The translations under genes and the position numbers were made by a program. Under the pieces are notes generated by a model. It was not told where the DNA came from, did not search any database, and was given only the letters and a program-made list of their open reading frames with translations. A stretch of DNA of 64,000 nt from Actinomadura graeca (GTDB lineage Bacteria; Actinomycetota; Actinomycetes; Streptosporangiales; Streptosporangiaceae). Within the stretch, counting starts at the first letter, position 1, and every line of letters starts with the position of its first letter. Where the stretch lies: NCBI RefSeq assembly GCF_019175365.1, contig NZ_CP059572.1, positions 8,494,001 through 8,558,000 of the forward strand, given 5' to 3'. Shown here piece by piece: positions 42,681 to 59,964 of the stretch.

Positions 42681-44337
42681 ATGGCCTACTCGGAGAAACG
42701 CGGTAGAGGAGCCAACGCCTACTACATCGCTCGCTTCAGCGACGGCTGCGGCAACTGGCCCACAGTGAAGAACGCCGACGGGGAGACCCTGCGGTTCAAG
42801 AAGAAGCTGGATGCGCAGAAGGCCGGCGAGGACGCCGAGGCCGAGGTGCGCAAGGGCCGGTGGTACGACCCCAGCGCAGCGCAGGAGACCTTCGGTGCGT
42901 TCACCAGCCGCCGGTACGCCGAGCTGGACCTGGCCCTGTCCACGATGCAGAACTACCGGCGCCACCTGGAGAACCACCTGCTCCCCTCCTTCGAGCACCT
43001 CACCTTGCACCAGCTCTACCGGGAGCCCGAGCGCATCGAGGAGTGGCAGCGGTCCAAGAACGCCGCCGGGTACAAGCCCAACAGCGTCAGCAGCTGGCGC
43101 CGCACCCTGCACGTCTTCCTCGGCGACGCCGTCGAGGAAGGCCTGATCCCGGGCAACCCGGCGACCCGGCGACCCGGCCGGGGCAAACGCGCGGGCCGCA
43201 AGGCCGGCCGCGGCCCCGAAAAGGTGATCACCGATGATCTGCGCGCCCTGCTGATCGCCGAGCGGGCGAGCCTGCTGACCGGCCGCGACGACGAGCTGGT
43301 GATGGTCCTGCTGGGCTCCTACACCGGGCTGCGCTGGGCCGAACTGGTCGGCCTGGAGGTGCGATACGCCCGGCCCGGCAGCCTGCGGGTCGAGCGGCAG
43401 CTGTGGGAGGACGACGACGGTGTCTTCCACGCCATCCCGCCCAAAGACGACTCCTACCGCGATGTCGACCTGCCCCCGTGGCTGTCGGCGCTGCTGTCAG
43501 CACACATCCACCGCACCGCACCCGAGCCCTGCCCCTGCCACGGCAAACGGTACGTCTTCCGCGGGGCGGACTCTGCGCGGCGGCGCAGCGGGCCGGTGAA
43601 CACCGCCGAGGTGGCCAGGCGGGCGCAGGTCAGCGTCGGCACGGTCTCCAACGTCCTCAACCACCCCGACCGCGTCGCGCCCGCCACCCGGGACAGGGTG
43701 CAGGCGGCGATCGGCGCGCTGGGCCTTGACCGCCCCGCTCCGGCGACCGCGCCCGAGGGCTGGGCGGGGGCGCCGCACTGGCGCCGGTCAGGGTTCGCGA
43801 CGTGGGTGTTCGGCCCGGCGGCGTCGGGCTGGTATCCCCGCAAGGCGCCGCAGCCGCCGCGGCCGGTGCCGCTGCTGGCCGACCCGTGGCCGGGCAGGCC
43901 GCTGCGGGGCCGCAACGCACACGGGCGGGCGGAGGCGTGCTGGACGCCGCTGTCGGCCGGGCTGACGCCGCACGGCCTGCGGCACTCACATCGGACGATG
44001 CTGGAGGAGGACGGGATTCCGCCGGTGCTGATCGACGAGCGGATGGGGCACGAGGACGGTTCGGTGCAGCGCCGCTACACCCATGTCACCGCGCCGATGC
44101 GCCGGCGTCTGGTGGGAGAGTTGACCGTGCGGTGGGAGGCGGCGCTGGCCGCGCGGCTGGCGCTGTGCCCGGCGTCGCCGGTGCCGGTGCTCGATGAGCT
44201 ACTGCGTGCCTGGTCACAGGCACGGGAAAGGGGACGATCCCAAGATCGTCCCACAGATCTCCCACAGAGGGGTGTTCCTGCCTTCAGGGCCAGACCCCGA
44301 AAGCGGTCCTGGCCTGCGTCGGGACGGCGGGATTTGA
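42681..44337 (+). CDS. int: Tyrosine integrase of element A with inserted LacI-type HTH
   Basis: N-terminal AP2-like/arm-binding domain (GRGANAYYIARFSDGCGNWP), SAM-like core-binding domain (about 75-165), then the catalytic domain: Arg218 in GLRWAE, LTPHGLRHSHRTMLEEDGIP (HxxR about 430), GHEDGSVQRRYTHV (Tyr about 466). Between Arg218 and HxxR lies an extra ~90 residues holding a LacI-family HTH (NTAEVARRAQVSVGTVSNVL, about residues 306-348). Near the end the frame shifts: at 44224-44233 (GGGAAAGGGG) the reading leaves the expected tail KIVPQISHRGVFLPSG, which is in the +1 frame and stops at 44335-44337 inside the att copy. In the unshifted frame the protein would read through att to 45230. 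Activity is therefore uncertain. Confidence 0.8.
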
Positions 44338-44360
44338 ACCCACGACCCCTTGACCCCCAG
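44318..44360. repeat. att core copy (attL of B, right att of A)
   Basis: 43 bp identical to 54286-54328, covering the tRNA-Pro segment from the anticodon loop to the 3' end. It is shared by both elements: the integrase gene of A ends in it and B begins in it. Confidence 0.95.
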
Positions 44361-45672: not shown

Positions 45673-46410
45673 CTAGTCGAAACTGTACTCTGCGGATAGC
45701 TCGCGTCCGGATCCCAGGAAGTCGATGGCGTACTCCGTTGGCTCGCCCTCTTGATCCCAATAGTGATTGGTCATGGTCAGAGCTGGCGTACCGACCTCTG
45801 TCTCCAGGATCGATGCTATGTCCTCGGGTACAGCCTTGATTGTGACGATGTCACGTCGGCGAACCACCCGGCGCCCGGTTCGCTCTTCGATCAAGCCAAA
45901 GGTCATTTGTGGGAGCGGTTCGGTGCTTAGGAGCTCCGGCGCTGCTTCGGCGAGTTCTCCCGAGAGCCAGGAAGTCGAGACTGTTACGACTCCGTGGCCA
46001 TCTCGGTAGACCCGGCGTCGCCGTATGACTTGGCCGTTCTCCTCGATCCTCAGAGCGGCCGCTACCTCGCTCGAAGCTGTGGTCAGCTCCGCTTCTAGGA
46101 TCTCTGCGTGCTCGCCTGGGCGATAGCCGTTGCCGGTGGCGCGGAGCATCTGAAGCCGGTCCGGGCCGGTTGTCTGGCGATGGGTGATGGAAACATACGT
46201 TCCCTGCGATGAGGCTTGCACGAAGCCCTCATTGCGAAGCTGAGTAAGTGCTTTGGCTGCTGTAGCGGTGGCGACGGACCATCCCTGAGAGATCTCGGCG
46301 ATGGACGGAAGCCGGTCGCCTTCTGTGAGTCGACCGTCTTTGATCTCCCGCCTGAAGTGATCAGCGATCTGTACGTACGGCGGCGGTGTGCGCTCTACCT
46401 GGGGTGACAC
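45673..46410 (-). CDS. GntR/HutC-family repressor (KorSA-like)
   Basis: 245 residues. N-terminal winged-helix (YVQIADHFRREIKDGRLTEG, DRLPSIAEISQGWSVATATA, QLRNEGFVQASSQGTYV) and C-terminal UTRA ligand-binding domain (VIRRRRVYRDGHGVVTVSTS, YWDQEGEPTEYAIDFLGSGR). In pSAM2 a protein of this type (KorSA) represses transfer and replication genes. It is divergent from 46578 on, with ACTAGT-centred sites between. Confidence 0.9.
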   Translation of the reverse strand: MSPQVERTPPPYVQIADHFRREIKDGRLTEGDRLPSIAEISQGWSVATATAAKALTQLRNEGFVQASSQGTYVSITHRQTTGPDRLQMLRATGNGYRPGEHAEILEAELTTASSEVAAALRIEENGQVIRRRRVYRDGHGVVTVSTSWLSGELAEAAPELLSTEPLPQMTFGLIEERTGRRVVRRRDIVTIKAVPEDIASILETEVGTPALTMTNHYWDQEGEPTEYAIDFLGSGRELSAEYSFD

Positions 46411-46577: not shown

Positions 46578-46907
46578 GTGAAGAGGATCCCGGTGGATGT
46601 GGCGGGGCTGGAGTTCCGGGCGGTGGAGGACATCGCGCCGAAGCTGAAGAACCGCGAGACGGGCGAGATGAAGGTGAACGCGGCCGGTGTGCCGGTGTAC
46701 GAGGTGCTGATGACGGTCAAGGGCGAGGGGCGGCGTACCGAGTTGATGGCGGTGTCGCTGCCGACGAACGCCCCGCCGGACGTGCGGGCGGGTCAGGTCG
46801 TGGCCTTGGAGGGGCTGACGGGCTTCTTCTGGGAGACCTCGGGCCGTGCGGGCGTGTCGTTCTCGGTGACCGCGATCGCGCCGGTTCTCGACGAGGCGGG
46901 GGTGTAG
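46578..46907 (+). CDS. SCO3933-family regulatory-type protein
   Basis: 109 residues from GTG 46578, preceded by AGGAGGAG. VKRIPVDVAGLEFRAVEDIA, then PVYEVLMTVKGEGRRTELMA and SVTAIAPVLDEAGV; this small beta-rich family accompanies actinomycete ICE transfer operons (SCO3933-like). The biochemical role is unknown. First gene of the rightward operon controlled by the ACTAGT sites. Confidence 0.75.
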   Translation: MKRIPVDVAGLEFRAVEDIAPKLKNRETGEMKVNAAGVPVYEVLMTVKGEGRRTELMAVSLPTNAPPDVRAGQVVALEGLTGFFWETSGRAGVSFSVTAIAPVLDEAGV

Positions 46908-47190: not shown

Positions 47191-47204
47191 TAGCACGAGG
47201 AGTC

Positions 47205-47259
47205 CCCGGGGCGGGCCGTAGATATGCCTGCCAGCATCACCCGCCCCGGGTCACTCACC
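47205..47259 (+). ncRNA. Conserved-loop hairpin, copy 1 (upstream of traB-like gene)
   Basis: 11-bp perfect stem 47205-47215 / 47240-47250; loop contains ATGCCTGCCAGCA; followed by CACTCACC at 47252-47259, 46 nt before the ATG of the translocase gene. Shares loop and trailing motif with copies at 50749 and 51259 while the stems differ. Probably a cis-acting RNA element; type is my inference. Confidence 0.6.
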
Positions 47260-47305
47260 TGCAGAAAGGTTCCTGCAAGCAACCTCACGAGGAGGTGTCT
47301 TTAGT

Positions 47306-48742
47306 ATGCCGGATTTCGCTCCGGTGGAGTATGTCATCGCGGCTACACCGTTCGCGGCGGCGGCCGGTGGGGTGGCGTGGCAGCGGTACGCGCCGCATTC
47401 GTTCTGGTACGGCGTCGGCTACCCGCTGAAAGCCGCCCAGGTGTACGGCACGTGGCACCACGTGGCGTCCGGCTGCGGCCTGACCCGGCGGCGGCGTGCG
47501 CTGCGGTGGAGCGCTGAGGCGTTCCCCGGCATGGCGCCGGTCTTCCGTCATCGTCGAAGGCTGGGCCGTGTTCAGATCGACAAGGCTCCTCGACTGGGGG
47601 TGATCCGGCCGACCGCGCGCGGGCTCCGGGTGCCGATGCGGCTGCATGACGGTCAGACTCCCGATGATGTGCGGGCGGCGCTGGATCGGCTCGCGCACGC
47701 CTGGCGAGTCCATGCGGTGCGGCTGCATTCATGGAAGCCGGGTCGGGTCACGTTGCTGGTCACGGGCGCTGACCCGCTGGTGGATGTGGACTTGGCCGAT
47801 CTATCGGCGGGCCTGCTGACGGTCGTTCCGGCGGTTCTGGAAACCGGCGAGCCGTTCGTGATGGACTTCCGCGCGGTTCCGCATTGGCTGATCACGGGCG
47901 CGACCAATTCGGGCAAGTCAACCCTGATCAACGCTCTGATCATGGGGTTGACGACACAGCTGGCGTCCGGGGAGGCGCTGACCGGTGAACCTGCCGAATA
48001 CGAGGGTCAGGGCGTCGCGCTCGTGGGCTTTGACCTTAAGGGCGGGGTGGAGTTCACCCCCTATGAGGCGCGCATGTCGGCACTGGCGACGGAGCGGGCC
48101 GACTGCCTGGCGCTCCTGGATCAGTTGATTGACATCGTCCGTGCCCGGATGGCGTTGTGCCGTCGGCATCGTGCCCGCAACATCTGGCATCCGCGTATCT
48201 CGGCCGACGTGCGTCCGACTCCGATCGTGGTGCTGATCGATGAGATAGCCGAACTGTTCCTGATGGCCGACAAGTCACAGAAGGAAGAGGTCACCCGCGC
48301 GGCTACCGCGCTGCTGCGGCTCGCGCAGATCTCCCGCGCTTTCGGTGTCTACCTGGTGGTGTGCGGCCAGCGTGTCGGCTCCGACCTCGGCTCGGGAGTG
48401 ACCGCGTTGCGTTCGCAGCTATCGGGACGGATCTGTCATCGCGTCAATGATGAAGCCACTGCTGAGATGACCCTTGGCGACATGGACAGGGCCGCGTTGG
48501 CTGCTGCCCGGCAGATCCCGGCGAACATGCCGGGCGTGGCGGTGGTGATCGGTTCCGATGGCCTATGGCACCGTGCCCGGTCGGCCTACCGCACCGAGGA
48601 ACAGGCGGAGGATGCCGCCGCCTTCTACGCGCCGTTGGCGCCGGAGTGGAAGACCTTGCTCGCCGAAATCGACACGGCGGGCGAGCTGCCCGAGTTAGAC
48701 GCGTTCGAATCCGAGTTCTCCGACGCCACGACGCCGATCTGA
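47306..48742 (+). CDS. FtsK/SpoIIIE-type conjugative translocase (TraB/TraSA)
   Basis: 478 residues. Short hydrophobic N-terminus, then the motor: Walker A WLITGATNSGKSTLINALIM (about 198-206), Walker B PIVVLIDEIAELFLMADKSQ, arginine-finger region LRSQLSGRICHRVNDEATAE. GAGGAGG precedes ATG 47306. It pumps double-stranded element DNA from donor to recipient hyphae in pSAM2-type transfer. Its coding region follows conserved-loop hairpin copy 1. Confidence 0.9.
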   Translation: MPDFAPVEYVIAATPFAAAAGGVAWQRYAPHSFWYGVGYPLKAAQVYGTWHHVASGCGLTRRRRALRWSAEAFPGMAPVFRHRRRLGRVQIDKAPRLGVIRPTARGLRVPMRLHDGQTPDDVRAALDRLAHAWRVHAVRLHSWKPGRVTLLVTGADPLVDVDLADLSAGLLTVVPAVLETGEPFVMDFRAVPHWLITGATNSGKSTLINALIMGLTTQLASGEALTGEPAEYEGQGVALVGFDLKGGVEFTPYEARMSALATERADCLALLDQLIDIVRARMALCRRHRARNIWHPRISADVRPTPIVVLIDEIAELFLMADKSQKEEVTRAATALLRLAQISRAFGVYLVVCGQRVGSDLGSGVTALRSQLSGRICHRVNDEATAEMTLGDMDRAALAAARQIPANMPGVAVVIGSDGLWHRARSAYRTEEQAEDAAAFYAPLAPEWKTLLAEIDTAGELPELDAFESEFSDATTPI

Positions 48743-48757
48743 AAAGGGAGGTGCTCC

Positions 48758-49543
48758 ATGTCTCGGGTGCGTCGCCTGCCCGGCCTGCTCATCGATTCCA
48801 GCCCGGTGCTGGTGTTGGCCGTTATCGCGGCGGCTGGCTCGTTCACCCATATCCGCGACACCGCGAATGAACACGGCCAGCACGGATGGATGGCCTGGGC
48901 CGTGGCGGTGTGCATCGACCTGACTTGCGTCATGGCGGCTCGGGAACGTCAGCGAGACAAGCGCGTCGGCCGGATCACGCCCCGGCTGTCGTGGCCGACG
49001 TGCGTACTGATCGGCGGGGTTCTGTTGTCGCTTGCAGCGAACCTGGCGCAAGCCGAACCGGTCGTGTGGGGCTGGGTAATGGCTGCGACTCCCGCTGCGG
49101 CGTTCCTGGTCGCGGTCTCCATGCTGGAGCGCCGTGCCGCTCACGGATCGTCTGTCCTAGTGGAACCGCAGGAACGGCACACTGCCGATGGCCTGGGGGC
49201 CGAGCCCTCGTCCGCCGTCGCCGAACACCTCTCGGCGGGGGATCAGCCTGCTGCCTCCCCGGCCCCGGTCGGTCCTGCCTCCGACTTGCAGCGACCTGAA
49301 ATCCCTGCTCACACGCCTACTGGTGCGTCCTCGGCTCCGGCCGCTGCCGGTTCCGGTACATCCGGTAGCGGCGGTACGCCGGGTCCGTCTCCGGCGCTGG
49401 TGAACTACGCGCGCCAGATCGCCGAAGCTCACCGCGCCCAGCATGGCAAACCGATCACTCGCGACCAGCTTCGTACCCGGCTCAAAATCGGCACCGACCT
49501 GGCTTCCACCCTGCTGCGAGAGGTCCGCACCGAACCTGCTTAA
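48758..49543 (+). CDS. DUF2637/Spd-type membrane protein
   Basis: 261 residues from ATG 48758 with GGGAGG upstream. Four hydrophobic segments in the first ~125 residues (SSPVLVLAVIAAAGSFTHIR, HGWMAWAVAVCIDLTCVMAA, PTCVLIGGVLLSLAANLAQA, WGWVMAATPAAAFLVAVSML). Then a Pro/Ser/Ala linker and a C-terminal HTH-like domain (HGKPITRDQLRTRLKIGTDL, ASTLLREV). Spd proteins aid spread of elements within recipient mycelium. Confidence 0.85.
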   Translation: MSRVRRLPGLLIDSSPVLVLAVIAAAGSFTHIRDTANEHGQHGWMAWAVAVCIDLTCVMAARERQRDKRVGRITPRLSWPTCVLIGGVLLSLAANLAQAEPVVWGWVMAATPAAAFLVAVSMLERRAAHGSSVLVEPQERHTADGLGAEPSSAVAEHLSAGDQPAASPAPVGPASDLQRPEIPAHTPTGASSAPAAAGSGTSGSGGTPGPSPALVNYARQIAEAHRAQHGKPITRDQLRTRLKIGTDLASTLLREVRTEPA

Positions 49544-49588
49544 TCAATCCTGATCGCTCACTCCCTCTGTTGAAAGGAACTCGCTGTC

Positions 49589-49708
49589 ATGACCACTCAC
49601 GACCTGACCTGCCCGACCTGCGGCGCCCGGAAGCGGCCGGGTGATGGGGTGCTGTGCGGCTCCTGCCGGGTCCAGACCCGGCGCCGGACGCTGTCCCGGC
49701 GGCACTGA
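49589..49708 (+). CDS. Zinc-ribbon microprotein
   Basis: 39 residues: MTTHDLTCPTCGARKRPGDG, VLCGSCRVQTRRRTLSRRH. Two CxxC knuckles 13 residues apart form a minimal zinc ribbon with a basic tail, probably nucleic-acid binding. AAAGGA lies upstream. Confidence 0.7.
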   Translation: MTTHDLTCPTCGARKRPGDGVLCGSCRVQTRRRTLSRRH

Positions 49709-49715
49709 CGACGCC

Positions 49716-50168
49716 ATGTTCCACGCTGACGCAACCGCATTCGCTGCGGCCTTCGCCGTGCTGTATGCCGTGCATGAGGTCGGTGACCATTGGATCCAGA
49801 CTGACTATCAGGCGATCACCAAGGGGCGGCCGGACTGGGCTGGACGGTTGGCCTGTGCTGGGCACGTCGTCGTGCTCGCTTTGGTCAAGGCGAGCATGGT
49901 GGGTTTGGTCGCCGTGGTGCTGGCCCTGCCCCTCAAGCCCTGCGCCGTAATCATGTCCTTGGCCGTGGACGCTGTCTCGCACTACTGGGCCGACCGGCGT
50001 CGCACGCTCGCCGCGTTGGCGGAACGCCTCGGCAAAGGCAACTTTGCCCGGCTCGGTGACGGCCTAGTCGCGCCCGCGGGGACCGGCGCCTACGCACTGG
50101 ATCAGTCCTGGCACGTCGGCTGGCTCCTGGTAGCAGCGCTGGGCTGCTGTGTGGGGGCCGCACCGTGA
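49716..50168 (+). CDS. DUF3307-like membrane protein
   Basis: 150 residues from ATG 49716. AFAVLYAVHEVGDHWIQTDY with His/Asp pairs inside hydrophobic helices (VHEVGDHW, LACAGHVVVLALVKAS, LAVDAVSHYWADRR) is characteristic of DUF3307-type proteins found on phages and ICEs. Four probable membrane helices. Its stop overlaps the next gene (GTGA). Function unknown. Confidence 0.7.
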   Translation: MFHADATAFAAAFAVLYAVHEVGDHWIQTDYQAITKGRPDWAGRLACAGHVVVLALVKASMVGLVAVVLALPLKPCAVIMSLAVDAVSHYWADRRRTLAALAERLGKGNFARLGDGLVAPAGTGAYALDQSWHVGWLLVAALGCCVGAAP

Positions 50169-50263
50169 CCGTGAACCGTCCCCGGCCCGGCCGTTGCCCG
50201 TTGTGCGCGGGCTGCCGCCGCCCGCCCGTCCCCTGCACCTGCAACGGCGTCGAAGGGAGGTAA
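50165..50263 (+). CDS. Cys-rich microprotein
   Basis: 32 residues, MTVNRPRPGRCPLCAGCRRP followed by PVPCTCNGVEGR, five Cys. GTG overlaps the previous stop by GTGA; its 3' end carries the GGGAGG ribosome-binding site of the next gene, so the three are tightly coupled. Confidence 0.6.
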   Translation: MTVNRPRPGRCPLCAGCRRPPVPCTCNGVEGR

Positions 50264-50268
50264 CCGCC

Positions 50269-50412
50269 ATGGGCCGCAAGCGCACTCCGGTTCCGTGCCT
50301 CGCCTGCGATGGAACCGGCCAGATCACCACGACCCGAACCAACCGGCGAACCGGCGAGGCCGTCAAGCAGGAAGCGTTGTGCATGACCTGCTCCGGCGAC
50401 GCCAACGCCTGA
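50269..50412 (+). CDS. Zinc-ribbon-like microprotein
   Basis: 47 residues: MGRKRTPVPCLACDGTGQIT, then EAVKQEALCMTCSGDANA. CxxCxGTG plus CxxC, 27 residues apart. GGGAGG precedes ATG 50269. It resembles the 45410-45556 product on the other strand. Confidence 0.7.
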   Translation: MGRKRTPVPCLACDGTGQITTTRTNRRTGEAVKQEALCMTCSGDANA

Positions 50413-50469
50413 CCCAAGGCACGGAAAGGACCCGCCACCACGCATCTGACCAGAGAGGAACACCAAATC

Positions 50470-50577
50470 ATGGAATGCGGCAACTGTGGCGCACCATGTC
50501 GCGCCTACCAGGGGTTCTGCTCGACCGAATGCCAGCACGCCGCCGAATGTGACGGGACTTGCTGCGGCAACGGCTAA
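50470..50577 (+). CDS. Cys-rich microprotein
   Basis: 35 residues with eight Cys: MECGNCGAPCRAYQGFCSTE, CQHAAECDGTCCGNG. Density suggests two metal ions or a compact metal cluster. GAGAGGA upstream. Confidence 0.65.
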   Translation: MECGNCGAPCRAYQGFCSTECQHAAECDGTCCGNG

Positions 50578-50605
50578 GTCTCAGCACAGAAAGGATTCAT
50601 CACCG

Positions 50606-50740
50606 GTGACCTTCAACGCCCCCGGATCTCACCTGTCCGGCGCGTGCTTCGACTGCGGCGCCGGCGGATTGGACGCCGCTGGCCTGATCTGCCGGACCTG
50701 CAACGGCCTCGGACTGATCCACCCCTACCCCGACCACTGA
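50606..50740 (+). CDS. Zinc-ribbon-like microprotein
   Basis: 44 residues: GACFDCGAGGLDAAGLICRT then CNGLGLIHPYPDH; two CxxC(x)G motifs. GTG 50606 has AAAGGA upstream. Followed 8 nt later by conserved-loop hairpin copy 2. Confidence 0.65.
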   Translation: MTFNAPGSHLSGACFDCGAGGLDAAGLICRTCNGLGLIHPYPDH

Positions 50741-50748
50741 TCCACCAC

Positions 50749-50794
50749 GGGGGCCGACATGCCTGCCAGCACTCGCCCCCAACTTCACTCACCC
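50749..50794 (+). ncRNA. Conserved-loop hairpin, copy 2
   Basis: Stem GGGGGC 50749-50754 / GCCCCC 50775-50780; loop CGACATGCCTGCCAGCACTC; CACTCACCC at 50786-50794, 22 nt before the ATG at 50817. Confidence 0.6.
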
Positions 50795-50816
50795 GAACAG
50801 GAAGGAACACCAGTCC

Positions 50817-50918
50817 ATGAGCAAGCAACCCTGTGTGCAGTGCTGGGGAATCGGTCGCATGAGCTGTGGGGGCACCACTGCGACGTGCACCGTCTGCGAC
50901 GGCGTGGGGGAGGTCTGA
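50817..50918 (+). CDS. Zinc-ribbon-like microprotein
   Basis: 33 residues: MSKQPCVQCWGIGRMSCGGT, TATCTVCDGVGEV. CxxCWGIG and CTVCDGVG motifs. First gene after hairpin copy 2. Confidence 0.65.
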   Translation: MSKQPCVQCWGIGRMSCGGTTATCTVCDGVGEV

Positions 50919-50919
50919 C

Positions 50920-51024
50920 ATGGCCGACCGTCCCTGCTCCGACTGCGACGGCTTCGGTCAGGCCTGCACCCGTACCGGCACCGTTCAGTGCCCGGTCTGT
51001 AACGGCACCGGCCAGACCGGCTGA
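50920..51024 (+). CDS. Zinc-ribbon-like microprotein
   Basis: 34 residues: MADRPCSDCDGFGQACTRTG, TVQCPVCNGTGQTG. CxxCDGFG and CPVCNGTG motifs, the same plan as the preceding gene, starting 1 nt after its stop; probably a tandem duplicate. Confidence 0.7.
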   Translation: MADRPCSDCDGFGQACTRTGTVQCPVCNGTGQTG

Positions 51025-51026
51025 CC

Positions 51027-51131
51027 ATGGCCACCCACGACGACGCCGAAGCGGCCGAGTTCATCCGCCGCTGGAACGAGGCGGTCTATGCCCGCCGCGA
51101 CGCCAAGAACAAGTCCGCTCGCAAGCGGTGA
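51027..51131 (+). CDS. Small charged microprotein
   Basis: 34 residues, MATHDDAEAAEFIRRWNEAV followed by YARRDAKNKSARKR: a single amphipathic helix with a basic tail and no Cys. Packed 2 nt after the preceding gene and 3 nt before the next. Confidence 0.6.
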   Translation: MATHDDAEAAEFIRRWNEAVYARRDAKNKSARKR

Positions 51132-51134
51132 CCG

Positions 51135-51239
51135 ATGGGGAAGGTGATCACCATCTGTTACGGCTGCGCCGGAGCGCGCGTCGATAGCGGCCGTGCCTGC
51201 CTCCGCTGCGGCGGGACCGGCATCGACCCCAATCCCTGA
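51135..51239 (+). CDS. Zinc-ribbon-like microprotein
   Basis: 34 residues: MGKVITICYGCAGARVDSGR, ACLRCGGTGIDPNP. CYGCAG and CLRCGGTG motifs. Last of the train, followed by hairpin copy 3. Confidence 0.7.
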   Translation: MGKVITICYGCAGARVDSGRACLRCGGTGIDPNP

Positions 51240-51258
51240 CCACGACCGACGACCCTCC

Positions 51259-51319
51259 GGGCGGGACGGCCCGACGCCTGCCAGCACTGGCCGTCCCGCC
51301 CGCTCTCCTGCACTCACCC
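51259..51319 (+). ncRNA. Conserved-loop hairpin, copy 3 (upstream of rep)
   Basis: 13-bp perfect stem 51259-51271 / 51289-51301; loop CGACGCCTGCCAGCACT; CACTCACCC at 51311-51319, 25 nt before the ATG of rep. Confidence 0.65.
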
Positions 51320-51344: not shown

Positions 51345-52742
51345 ATGTCCACCCCACCTATCCCGTTGTCCGACATCATCGGGCCGGTACTGCGAGACCT
51401 GACGCGCCGGTCCGGGACCGATCTGCAACGTTGGATCGATCAGGTCAACGCACTTCGCGGCTGCGCCGAACCCGTTCGCCTGTCTGGTGAGTCGATGACC
51501 CTGAACGCGACCACGGGCGAAGTGCTCTCGTCCTACACCACGCAAGGTGAACCACACGGACAACTCATGGTGCGCTGCAAGAACCGGCGCGCGTCCCGCT
51601 GCCCATCGTGCGCGGAGGAGTACCGCGCCGACACCTATCACCTGATCAAAGCCGGGTTGTGCGGCGGGGACAAAGGGGTTCCCGTCTCAGTGGGATCACA
51701 TCCCCGTGTGCTCGCGACCCTGACCGCGCCAACCTTCGGGGCCGTGCATCGCGGCCCGGACAAGGCCGGGAGGGTCCGGGTCTGTCACCCACGCCGCAAC
51801 GGTCCCGCATGCTGGCGACGTCACGGCTCCGACGACGAGCTGATCGGACAGCCTCTCCAACCCGACGCCTACGACTACGCGGGCCACGTGGTATGGAACG
51901 CGCATGCCGGGGAGCTGTGGCGACGCTTCACTACCTACCTGCGGCGGCACTTGGCTGCTGCGGCTGGCATGACACAGCGGGCCTTCAATCAGTCAGTCAA
52001 GGTCTCCTTCGCCAAAGTCGCCGAATATCAGGCGCGCGGCCTTGTCCATTTCCACGCTGTCATCCGGTTGGACGGGCGCGCCGATGGCCCGGACGCCTGG
52101 CCCGCTCCGCCGTGCTGGGCGACGCCCGGCCTCCTCGATGCGGCCATCGGCTCGGCTGCGGCTGCTGTACGCCTGGACGTCGAGGTACCGAGCCTGGGCC
52201 GTGCCTTCCGGCTCGGCTTCGGTGAACAGGTCGATGTCCAGTCCATCGCGGCGTTCGGGGACGGCTGTGAGATCAGTGATCAGGCCGTTGCCGGGTACGT
52301 CGCCAAGTACGCCACCAAAGCTGCCGAGAGCACGGGCACACTGGACCGGCGCGTCAACGGAGACGACCTTGCCGGGCTCGCTGAACGTGGCGTTACGCGG
52401 CACGCGGCCCGGCTCATTCGTACGTGCTGGCATCTGGGCGACATTGCCGCCCATCCCGAACTTGCCGATGCCAAGCTCCGCAAGTGGGCGCACATGCTGG
52501 GCTTTCGCGGTCATTTCACCACCAAGTCGCGCGGCTACTCCACCACGCTCGGCACGCTTCGCGGCGTCCGCGCGGAGTACACCCGTCGTCGTCTGGGCCG
52601 CCCTGATCCGACCGACGAAACGATCCTCGTAGTGGCGCACTGGCGCTACCTCGGGCAGGGATATACCGCTGCTGAACGGCAGCTCGTCGAGACGGTGACA
52701 GGGCCATCGCCCGGCCAGGGCGAGCGGAGACCTTCGCCATGA
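51345..52742 (+). CDS. Rolling-circle replication initiator (RepSA-like)
   Basis: 465 residues. Cys pairs near residue 85 (CKNRRASRCPSCAEEYRADT) begin the actinomycete Rep family; the metal-binding HUH motif is GLVHFHAVIRLDG (about 231-243), and the nicking Tyr lies in AVAGYVAKYATKAAE (about 315). RepSA of pSAM2 nicks the double-strand origin after excision. It is coupled to xis downstream by an ATGA overlap. Confidence 0.85.
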   Translation: MSTPPIPLSDIIGPVLRDLTRRSGTDLQRWIDQVNALRGCAEPVRLSGESMTLNATTGEVLSSYTTQGEPHGQLMVRCKNRRASRCPSCAEEYRADTYHLIKAGLCGGDKGVPVSVGSHPRVLATLTAPTFGAVHRGPDKAGRVRVCHPRRNGPACWRRHGSDDELIGQPLQPDAYDYAGHVVWNAHAGELWRRFTTYLRRHLAAAAGMTQRAFNQSVKVSFAKVAEYQARGLVHFHAVIRLDGRADGPDAWPAPPCWATPGLLDAAIGSAAAAVRLDVEVPSLGRAFRLGFGEQVDVQSIAAFGDGCEISDQAVAGYVAKYATKAAESTGTLDRRVNGDDLAGLAERGVTRHAARLIRTCWHLGDIAAHPELADAKLRKWAHMLGFRGHFTTKSRGYSTTLGTLRGVRAEYTRRRLGRPDPTDETILVVAHWRYLGQGYTAAERQLVETVTGPSPGQGERRPSP

Positions 52743-52999
52743 ACGCTCACCCCAATCTCCTGCCATCAGACGAGGTGCTCGATGGCGGGCCGGTGTTGTC
52801 GGAGGTCTGGTACACCACGGAGCAGCTCGCGGTGCTCTTGGCCGTGGATCCCTCGACTCTGCGCCGGTGGCGGACTGGGCGACCGTTGCAGGGGCCTCCG
52901 TTCGTCCGGCTGAGCGGGGCCGTCACGCGCTACAACGCGGCCGACGTCCGCCGCTGGATGCTGCGCCATCGGATCGACCCGGACGAGGGCGCCCTGTGA
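52739..52999 (+). CDS. xis: Excisionase (Xis), MerR-type HTH
   Basis: 86 residues; VWYTTEQLAVLLAVDPSTLR, RWRTGRPLQGPPFVRLSGAV, TRYNAADVRRWM is the standard excisionase winged helix. Start overlaps rep stop (ATGA) and its stop overlaps the int start (GTGA), giving a rep-xis-int operon as in pSAM2. Confidence 0.85.
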   Translation: MNAHPNLLPSDEVLDGGPVLSEVWYTTEQLAVLLAVDPSTLRRWRTGRPLQGPPFVRLSGAVTRYNAADVRRWMLRHRIDPDEGAL

Positions 53000-54165
53000 C
53001 ACCTGAGCGTCTTCCGGTGGGCCTGTCGTTGTCGGCTGATGTCGAGTACCGCAACGATCGTCTCAAGCCCTACCGGGCACGGGTCCGCTGGGTTGATCCG
53101 GTGGACAAGCGGCGCCGCTCGATCTCCGAAGCTGCCCCTGATGAGGACGCGGCGCAGAAGTGGATCGATGAGGTGATGGCGGCTGCGGCGGCGGGCGTGG
53201 ATCCGGCGACCTTCACGATGTCGCTCGCCGAGTACGGCGGGTGCGTGATGCCGCTGGCCATGCGGGGACTGGAGGCCAAGACCCTGGATCCCTACCTTGC
53301 CGGATGGCGGCTGCGGGTGGTCCCCTCGCTGGGTCATCTGCCTGTGCGGCGGATCACCAACGGTGTCGTGGATCGGACCGTGTTCGGCTGGATTGATGAG
53401 GGGCACGGCCGGTCAACGGTGAAGAACAGTCTGGCTGCGCTGGTGCGGGTGATGGAACAGGCCGTCCGTGATGGGCTGATCGGCCGTAACCCGGCCCGGA
53501 TCACTGGCTGGCAGCGTCAGTACCGGCAGGCGTTCGATGAGCTGGACGATCCGCGCGCGCTGGCGTTGCCGGACTGGGCAGCGCTGGTCAAGCTCGCCGA
53601 TGCGCTCGTGGCTCGTTCCGCCGGCCGATTTGCGGGCTGGGGTGAGGCGGTCGTCTTCGCCGCGTGCACGGCCGCGCGGATCGGTGAGGTGTCGGGTGTG
53701 CGGGTCCGCGACATCGACCCGGGCGCCTGGGTGTGGACGGTCTGCCGTCAGACCACGCCGAGTCCCGGCGGCCTGGTGGACAAGGCCACCAAGGGGCGGT
53801 GCGCTCGTCGGGTGCCGCTGATCGAAGAGGTGCGTCCGCTGGTGGCCCGGCGGCTGGACAAGCTTCAAGGCCGACCTGATGCCCGGCTGTTCACGGGGCC
53901 GCGCGGCGGTCGTCTGACCACTGCGGTTCTGCGGGATGCCACGCATTGGGATGAGGTGGTGACCACACTCGGCTTTGAGAGCCTGCGGCGCCATGACCTG
54001 CGGCACACCGGTCTGACCTGGATGGCAGACGCGGGCGTCCCGGTGCATGTGCTGCGGCTGATCGCGGGGCACGGCTCGCTGACGACGACGCAGCGGTACC
54101 TGCACCCGGACTTGGATGCGATTGTCGGGGCCGGTGCGGCGCTGAGCGTGCATCTCGCTAAATGA
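52996..54165 (+). CDS. int: Tyrosine integrase of element B
   Basis: 389 residues from GTG 52996. Arm-binding N-terminus (YRARVRWVDPVDKRRRSISE), core-binding domain, and catalytic residues in CTAARIGEVSGV, LRRHDLRHTGLTWMADAGVP (HxxR about 331) and GHGSLTTTQRYLHP (Tyr about 366). It ends 120 bp from the tRNA-Pro core. Catalyses site-specific recombination between attP and the tRNA 3' end. Confidence 0.9.
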   Translation: MTPERLPVGLSLSADVEYRNDRLKPYRARVRWVDPVDKRRRSISEAAPDEDAAQKWIDEVMAAAAAGVDPATFTMSLAEYGGCVMPLAMRGLEAKTLDPYLAGWRLRVVPSLGHLPVRRITNGVVDRTVFGWIDEGHGRSTVKNSLAALVRVMEQAVRDGLIGRNPARITGWQRQYRQAFDELDDPRALALPDWAALVKLADALVARSAGRFAGWGEAVVFAACTAARIGEVSGVRVRDIDPGAWVWTVCRQTTPSPGGLVDKATKGRCARRVPLIEEVRPLVARRLDKLQGRPDARLFTGPRGGRLTTAVLRDATHWDEVVTTLGFESLRRHDLRHTGLTWMADAGVPVHVLRLIAGHGSLTTTQRYLHPDLDAIVGAGAALSVHLAK

Positions 54166-54285: not shown

Positions 54286-54328
54286 GTCGGGACGGCGGGA
54301 TTTGAACCCACGACCCCTTGACCCCCAG
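54286..54328. repeat. att core within tRNA-Pro (attR of B)
   Basis: 43 bp identical to 44318-44360. It restores the 3' half of the tRNA gene. Confidence 0.95.
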
Positions 54329-54360
54329 TCAAGTGCGCTGCCAAACTGCGCTACGTCCCG
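54287..54360 (-). tRNA. tRNA-Pro (anticodon GGG)
   Basis: 74 nt on the minus strand: acceptor CGGGACG/CGTCCCG, D-stem GCGC/GCGC, anticodon stem CTTGA/TCAAG around loop CTGGGGG (anticodon GGG), T-arm GTGGG-TTCAAAT-CCCGC, discriminator A, CCA not encoded. It is the integration target of elements A and B. Confidence 0.97.
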
Positions 54361-59309: not shown

Positions 59310-59799
59310 GGCAGGTCACAGCCCTGCCCGGCCGGTGACCCCGCGTGATGCAGGACACGCCGACGCACGGGCGGCCGGCCGATGCCGGGAGCCCGCCACG
59401 CGCCGGACTTTCTTTACCCGGCCGTTGCGCAGCCTCGTCAAGGTAAAATCCGAGACCCGCGCTGTGCGGGGAAAACCCGGTGCCATAAGGGCTTTCGCCT
59501 GGTCGGACGTCCCTTCCGCGCCGACCTGCGGAAAGATCGGGAAGACCCTGCCGGGTGGCGGCGTTGGGAGTCTCTTGGAAGGCTCTTGAGCAGGCAAGAC
59601 AGTGCTTTGTGCCTGGTTTGCTTTTCTTGGGATGGTTGGTACCTTCTACCCAATCACCAACGCGTTCCATGCGTTGTGTCCGGTCGCGCCGAGCGCGGCC
59701 GCAGGTCGCGGAGCGATGACGCACGCGACGCGCGCCAGGACGATGCGCGCCAGTCAAGATCAGTCGCAGAGATACATCCGACAACGGCATCGCACGGCG
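59310..59799. other. 490-bp gap before the riboswitch
   Basis: It should hold the promoter of the riboswitch transcript. The middle part is less GC-rich (near 59600-59660). I recognise no gene or further RNA. Confidence 0.4.
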
Positions 59800-59946
59800 C
59801 GATGCCAGGCCGAGTCCGTGCCGGTCGTCACGACCGGACGGAGCCGGGGACCCAGGTTCCAGGGGTGAATCGGGGCGCTCTCAGAGCGCGCCGTAGGGCT
59901 GCTTCCATGCCCGAATCCGTCAGCTAACCCGGTAGGCGCCATGGAA
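59800..59946 (+). promoter_or_regulatory. Cyclic di-AMP riboswitch (ydaO/yuaA type)
   Basis: Conserved blocks in order: GCCGAGTCCGT, GACGGAGCCGGGGACCCAGG, AGGGGTGAATCGG, CCGTAGGG, CCCGAATCCGTCAGCTAACC and GGTAGGCG. These match the c-di-AMP riboswitch upstream of rpf and NlpC/CHAP hydrolases in actinomycetes. It lies directly upstream of the CHAP gene; high c-di-AMP should shut off expression (from family knowledge). Confidence 0.93.
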
Positions 59947-59964
59947 GACAAGGAGATTCCCCGC

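Follow-up and report, generated by a model that had tools for sequence, protein, structure and literature searches.

The 64,000-nt stretch of Actinomadura graeca DNA analyzed here (the window; assembly GCF_019175365.1, contig NZ_CP059572.1, positions 8,494,001 to 8,558,000 of the forward strand) holds an actinomycete integrative and conjugative element (AICE; ICE for such elements in general) of about 10 kb, the ends of which are marked by a 43-bp att repeat. One repeat (54286..54328) lies inside a tRNA-Pro(GGG) gene (54286-54360, minus strand), and the distal copy (44318..44360, no strand assigned) is identical to the 3' part of that gene. The AICE has three sense-strand intergenic hairpins, each ahead of a gene (traB, a CxxC microprotein gene and repSA) whose start is 55, 36 and 42 nt away, respectively; the hairpins have the loop GCCTGCCAGC(A) and a downstream CACTCACC in common. 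An earlier note on the window had described three hairpins with the same loop, trailing CACTCACC and a nearby start codon, placed before traB-like, zinc microprotein and rep genes; both their coordinates and this placement were confirmed. Copy 1 (47204..47259, (+) strand) lies between a 92-aa open reading frame (ORF) and traB and has the stem CCCGGGGCGGG/CCCGCCCCGGG, with arms at 47205-47215/47240-47250, the loop motif at 47226-47236, CACTCACC at 47252-47259 and the traB ATG at 47306. Copy 2 (50749..50793, (+)) is a weak stem of 6 bp (arms 50749-50754/50775-50780) with its motif at 50761-50771 and CACTCACC at 50786-50793, upstream of the microprotein ATG at 50817, while copy 3 (51258..51318, (+)) has 14 bp (arms 51258-51271/51289-51302), its motif at 51276-51286 and CACTCACC at 51311-51318, upstream of the rep ATG at 51345. 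In hairpins 1, 2 and 3, respectively, 46, 23 and 26 nt separate the end of CACTCACC from the start codon. All three are intercistronic, with the previous stop codon 14, 8 and 18 nt away, and are not evidently mRNA 5' ends.

Ahead of the first hairpin, the AICE codes for a GntR/UTRA regulator (45673..46410, (-)), KorSA-like by family and position, which is divergent from a pra homologue of the SCO3933 family, a candidate regulator (46578..46907, (+); NF051478, 85.2 bits against a cut-off of 80). SCO3933 is termed homologous to pSAM2 Pra in the part of PMC8584621 covered here. The genes that follow are all on the (+) strand: a 478-aa traB-like FtsK/SpoIIIE transfer ATPase (47306..48742; PF01580, under the NCBIfam plasmid_TraB cut-off); an SpdB-like DUF2637 gene (48758..49543); a cluster of small cysteine-rich ORFs (49589..51239; ORFs at 49589, 50269, 50470, 50606, 50817, 50920 and 51135), which also contains a DUF3307-like ORF at 49716, under the Pfam cut-off, and a 34-aa ORF at 51027; a 465-aa rolling-circle replication initiator of the RepSA family (51345..52742; PF20199, 525 bits, under the NCBIfam RepSA equivalog cut-off); a xis-like helix-turn-helix protein (52739-52999); and a tyrosine integrase of uncertain start that ends at 54165. 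The 33-aa CxxC..CxxC microprotein behind copy 2 (50817..50918) is one of several between traB and rep and has weak Pfam matches only.

The exact 11-nt loop motif occurs three times in the window, each time at a hairpin, and the motif with CACTCACC within 3-33 nt is found three times on the forward strand and never on the reverse strand of the 9-Mb genome, a reversed-pattern control giving 0. Looser forms turn up readily: when one mismatch is allowed, the motif matches 6 times in the window (a count reached in 13 of 100 shuffles), and CACTCACC has 5 matches (reached in 12 of 100). Taken singly, copies 1 and 3 fold more stably than their shuffles (z -2.59 and -3.57). A model built from six sequences (R1) scores copy 1, a seed member, at 58.5 bits, and the non-seed copies 3 and 2 at 34.8 and 25.9 bits, with E-values for the window of 7.6e-5 and 0.0039. 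A related locus, L178, has a gene similar to the copy-2 microprotein, likewise with a hairpin.

Relatives were sought in family f1, taken as Streptosporangiaceae, and in f18, taken as Streptomyces. TraB was found in 92 of the 200 f1 genomes searched, and of 30 regions lying upstream of top-ranking TraB matches (window included), 10 have the hairpin (L127, L128, L129-L133, L135, L154, L156); R1 adds L143 and L153, in which it lies further upstream of TraB, and in the remaining 18 of these 30 regions no hairpin was seen. In wider loci, covered by R1 together with a loop-anchored scan, copies precede traB, and others lie some 2-10 kb further downstream in the vicinity of rep and CxxC genes. In all, 19 loci from 18 genomes, termed type A, carry the loop in a stem, and 16 of them have two to four direct copies. 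Such relatives are poorly served by exact patterns, which are too strict: a strict pattern scan matched five of 200 family genomes including the own one, with a strong stem only in L126 among the four others, and its single match in 394 class genomes was the own genome. An exact-pattern scan of genome contigs gave at least 119 stretches, nearly all chance-like by stem score. Among the matches listed, L021 (Kribbella) has at 1970-2011 a 12-bp stem that encloses the loop GCCTGCCAGCA and has GCACTCACC after it. An R1 scan of 40 relatives found window copy 1 alone among the 145 candidates that it scored, from hundreds to thousands per genome, and is no evidence of absence. The R1 row L162 417 (24.3 bits, without the loop motif) was dropped, as were reverse-strand R1 matches, which were taken to be shadows of the palindromic stem; the type A rows of one listing of three loops, which include chance matches, were left out of the counts. 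L190 1921 (loop TTGCCG, no start) is in the wider motif, placement and tail counts and was removed from those of Shine-Dalgarno pairing and copy number.

A later set came from a Rep search over 341 f1 genomes, which gave 17 loci in previously unsearched genomes; 16 were taken in, G578 (partial Rep) being left out. Outside genus g46, a strong stem with the loop GCYTGSCRGC precedes traB or rep in 10 of 13 loci, or in 12 of 13 counting the loop variant of L319 and L322, whose hairpin has a one-base loop insertion; L321, with no TraB in its stretch, has a chance-like match only. A narrower first look, confined to 1.5 kb upstream of rep, had found a copy in six of 12 non-g46 loci. Further copies in related elements, the lack of which the earlier note had named as one outcome that would speak against it, are hence at hand in the 19 loci and again in these 10 of 13. 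Some TraB matches in the relatives have an in-frame TGA or a later start, and in several of them (L179-L181, L183 and L187-L190) the first ORF after the traB hairpin has just 72-77 aa and resembles the TraB N-terminus; TraB may be split into two genes in those relatives. Near the ICE locus of another relative, L184, there are CRISPR-DR12 direct repeats (1552-1645).

Across the 19 type A loci, 38 of the 46 sense occurrences of three loop variants lie in strong stems (a score of 21 or more, reached by 2.1% of random positions), which is not a blind rate since the loci were picked for carrying the element, against one of 13 antisense occurrences; loops in weak or broken stems (e.g. L179 7445, L180 8781, L188 13572) were kept among the 46. 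As R1 searched both strands, locus choice alone does not explain this strand contrast. Trans-acting antisense RNA was also considered; on the antisense strand, however, the loop words are scarce and hardly ever part of a stem. The earlier note had read covariation from the window itself, for which three paralogous copies are insufficient; it became evident once relatives were added. In 30 aligned R1 copies 98.3% of stem cells are paired, as against 41.9-56.3% in slid-structure controls, both sides have changed in 8 of 14 pairs, and double-change cells number 43 against 10.9 in shuffles (0 of 500 shuffles reach 43), figures that lean towards structure, given an alignment fitted to the model and the relatedness of the sequences. 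These data support the view that the stem is selected for pairing and not for its letters.

In the window and six loci, nothing at the hairpins reached the Rfam gathering cut-off, and at the E-value threshold there were sub-threshold matches elsewhere only; the earlier note, too, could name no described RNA family for them. In the open-licence literature, a scope outside which the key pSAM2 papers fall, there was no evident description of this hairpin. Judged from the sequences, the hairpins add a structured RNA family with interchangeable loops that is unmatched in the Rfam version used. Elsewhere in the window, beyond the ICE bounds, there is a c-di-AMP (ydaO/yuaA) riboswitch (59798-59953 (+), 72.3 bits). 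A terminator scan that allowed loops of 3-8 nt was uninformative on these hairpins, the loops of which are longer. The U-tract of intrinsic terminators is absent: none of 41 type A and none of 44 type B copies (a second loop type, described below) has a four-T run within 12 nt after the stem. This bears on a transcription-level explanation, in which the hairpins would act between cistrons as attenuators or pause sites, and binding of the nascent loop by an ICE factor such as Pra would let RNA polymerase pass and raise rep and tra transcription. Strong GC stems between head-to-tail genes are what it would expect, and pSAM2 Pra is reported to have a positive effect on the repSA-xis-int operon (PMC8584621, PMC3218068, in the parts covered); besides the missing T runs, it needs no tight spacing to start codons, and we consider it rather unlikely.

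Such spacing is pronounced. A start codon with a Shine-Dalgarno sequence lies 20-60 nt downstream of 36 of 41 type A, 43 of 44 type B and three of five type C copies, compared with 317 of 2000 random positions, the type B counts leaving out stems scoring below 23, type A loci and L285; the consistent placement upstream of ICE genes that the earlier note led one to look for is thereby borne out. Among distinct stems, sense-strand G.U exceeds A.C by 17:6 in type A (p 0.03), 14:7 in type B (p 0.19) and 3:1 in type C (p 0.6), a weak signal that suits RNA folding and is also compatible with same-strand single-stranded DNA.

Other ICEs have a different loop at the same place, likewise on unrelated stems: CCGCCAAG (type B) or CTGCKTCCAC (type C). 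A rep-leader hairpin with loop CCGCCAAG is present in 28 of 42 other f1 loci. In 24 of these 28 type B hairpins a sense-strand G in the 5' arm is kept opposite a T in the 3' arm, which is unusual for a duplex-DNA palindrome. The same loop occurs in 10 of 17 f18 loci, twice in six of them, and there precedes an SCO3933-family gene, a 185-aa gene, a CxxC microprotein or rep. The type C loop is found in three loci of two genera and, in the later set, in three of three g46 loci, and in one f18 locus, L240, rep is preceded by a hairpin with the window's loop and an unrelated stem. A hairpin scan unseeded by loop also returned recurrence on unrelated stems for loop A in 11 loci, B in three and C in one, along with many chance 8-mer recurrences. 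Neither loop A nor loop B stands in a strong stem in 20 stretches upstream of more distant Reps. The host genome itself has two more ICEs, in both of which loop CCGCCAAG precedes rep; it also has a TraB fragment that lacks this loop. Types A and B coexist in one host; therefore, loop identity goes with the ICE and not with the host. Two loci of the same genome, L288 and L289, have a different hairpin (CTAGACAGT...ACTGTCTAG) directly before pra, which resembles a duplex-DNA operator, perhaps for the GntR regulator.

The distribution of loops can also be read at the level of DNA, as single-stranded DNA hairpins that the HUH-type Rep would recognize as double-strand origin, nick or termination sites, or that some other replication protein would recognize. 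Many of the ICEs have a copy close to rep, loop type broadly follows Rep clade, and CTTG in some loops presumably resembles pC194/phiX174-type nick sites. Yet CTTG is absent from the window loops, L240 has loop A with a Rep about equidistant from both clades, and type C loops accompany Reps nearer clade A. Furthermore, the hairpins keep their spacing to start codons and also stand before traB, and two to four direct copies, as in 16 of 19 type A loci, should provoke deletions when an element replicates by rolling circle. We regard this DNA-level explanation as improbable.

The region between hairpin and start codon points to how the element might work. The main stem is predicted to be intact, with a mean of 0.87 in type A and 0.95 in type B, and pairs with the Shine-Dalgarno sequence above 0.3 in only three of 36 A and none of 43 B copies; pairing of the tail with the Shine-Dalgarno sequence amounts to 0.45 in type A against 0.30 with shuffled tails (n=36) and 0.49 against 0.28 in type B (n=43). 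Of 41 A copies, 23 have the word CTCAC within their 30-nt tail, where the best word in shuffles reaches at most 11, versus four of 44 B copies. In copy 1, the predicted fold has a small helix ACCTC/GAGGT (47282..47296, (+)) that would cover the traB Shine-Dalgarno sequence and is a candidate translation-inhibition structure; it is also one of three terminator-like matches, where 3.7 are expected by chance. The layout modelled in this way would be that of a hairpin beside a weak translation-inhibition structure. Stable stems between cistrons would be explained by passive mRNA hairpins that stabilize or process the polycistronic message with no trans-acting reader, but a conserved loop on changing stems and the differing loops among the ICEs of one host are then left unexplained, and we hold this to be a slim prospect. 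Far less probable still is a leader peptide (MPAS...) that would begin within the loop and be coupled to traB: the frame opened by the loop ATG of copy 1 does close right ahead of the traB ATG, but copy 3 has ACG in place of that loop ATG, copies 1 and 2 have CACTCACC in different frames, and loops B and C are different words.

Taken together, the hairpins are a genuine RNA-like element, conserved and present in multiple copies, that has ICE-specific loops and probably a regulatory function. We propose, with a probability of roughly 0.57, that they are copies of one cis-acting RNA operator on the AICE mRNA, read by an ICE-encoded protein that controls ribosome access; this suggests an RNA switch not described before, with a protein of the element itself as its probable reader. 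An ICE-encoded RNA-binding protein would recognize the loop, this would set, and most likely raise, ribosome access to a Shine-Dalgarno sequence partly masked by the tail, and the transfer and replication genes would respond together, each element having its own switch as the loop differs between ICE lineages. The cis-acting RNA element of the earlier note is well supported by further copies, covariation and placement, on the sense strand alone and some 25-60 nt ahead of traB, microprotein and rep starts, and its action on translation through a protein is what we infer beyond that. Several observations weigh against the proposal. Eight of the 46 sense loops are without a strong stem, and copy 2 folds no more stably than its shuffles (z -0.39, equalled by 75 of 200). 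None of the three loops is found in 7 of 17 f18 and 14 of 42 other f1 loci, some of which are fragments without rep. The p-values for placement, G.U pairs and Shine-Dalgarno pairing are too good because the copies are related, and the Shine-Dalgarno pairing signal is modest, its copies not being independent. Lastly, the window Pra is no closer to two other Pras of type A (33 and 34%) than to three of type B (34-41%) and two of type C (37 and 38%).

The candidates for the protein that would bind the proposed operator are, in order of likelihood, the CxxC microproteins beside the hairpins, then Pra, then Rep. All 17 type A loci with both traB and rep have CxxC..CxxC micro-ORFs between the two genes, as do three of three loci of type C, 28 of 38 of type B and 10 of 16 without a recognized loop, some of these ORFs being surely spurious; they are thus candidates not exclusive to looped loci. 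Near rep in L180, L181, L187 and L189, type A hairpins are followed by TWVCRCGGIN...CGRCG microproteins, which we take to resemble RanBP2-type zinc fingers, a class with RNA-binding members; the piece of such a microprotein tested against Pfam had no match. By mean similarity, Pra is the most loop-type-specific of four proteins, and Rep groups better than Pra for the window and not for types B and C. If the proposal holds, an operator common to the traB, rep and microprotein genes and coded by its loop would offer a testable handle on AICE activation, and would also bear on the role of the CxxC microproteins and on how co-resident ICEs avoid cross-talk.

Among known systems, the nearest analogue is Com/mom of phage Mu, where a hairpin with a six-residue loop stands next to a structure masking the start site. 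Com has been proposed to bind the loop of the mom mRNA hairpin beside the translation-inhibition structure and so to expose the start site (PMC6483171, in the part covered). The Mu target GAAUGCCUGCGAGCAUC compares with AUAUGCCUGCCAGCAUC in copy 1, with CUGCGA in Mu one base apart from CUGCCA here, and both Mu and this AICE encode small cysteine-rich (CxxC) proteins. Unlike Mu, the AICE has a long covarying GC stem and several copies per element before several genes. The comparison also has its debit side: the GA that Com requires, crucial in the Mu loop, is CA in the window loop; in the study cited by the covered part of PMC6483171, Com bound an RNA duplex and not a hairpin; R1 finds no match on the Mu com-mom stretch; the best structure in a 60-nt fold of the Mu stretch is not the Com hairpin; and PF10122 (Com) is found in none of 18 type A genomes. 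The Mu loop motif CC(N)2-3GAG does not fit the type A loops, which read CC-UGC-CAG, CC-UGG-CAG or CU-UGG-CGG, nor is PF10122 among the listed Pfam matches of 10 microproteins, three of which are cut pieces. By analogy, then, Mu Com/mom is a likeness of working and not of membership. We remain doubtful, while considering it possible, that there is a private multi-copy RNA operator regulon in which the loop of each AICE lineage, placed ahead of the transfer, replication and small zinc-protein genes, is read by its own RNA-binding microprotein, a Com-like translational activator; co-resident elements, such as the three in this genome, would then switch on independently.

The sps/SpdA system of Streptomyces plasmids is likewise a short repeated palindromic element on conjugative actinomycete replicons, with an associated small protein that has a zinc-finger-like match (PMC4170104, in the part covered). 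As described there, SpdA2 binds sps as a 12-bp DNA site of conserved sequence, whereas the AICE arms vary and pairing and loop are kept; membership in sps/SpdA was rejected, with no direct comparison to the sps letters, on the grounds that the stem letters vary with compensation. The RepSA double-strand origin of pSAM2 concerns the same kind of element, and neither hairpins nor palindromes nor inverted repeats are mentioned in PMC3218068, which covers that origin. Unlike the origin, the hairpins are multi-copy in most type A ICEs, stand also before traB, and are sense-strand and leader-linked. Finally, as in the KorSA-Pra circuit of pSAM2, a GntR/UTRA gene and a Pra homologue are neighbours in the window, which in addition has the hairpins before rep and traB; the part of PMC8584621 covered here names no RNA element in that circuit. 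In the pSAM2 literature, as far as covered, AICE replication and transfer are controlled by the protein regulators KorSA and Pra with no RNA element named, and the operator proposed here would, if real, add an RNA step to their activation.

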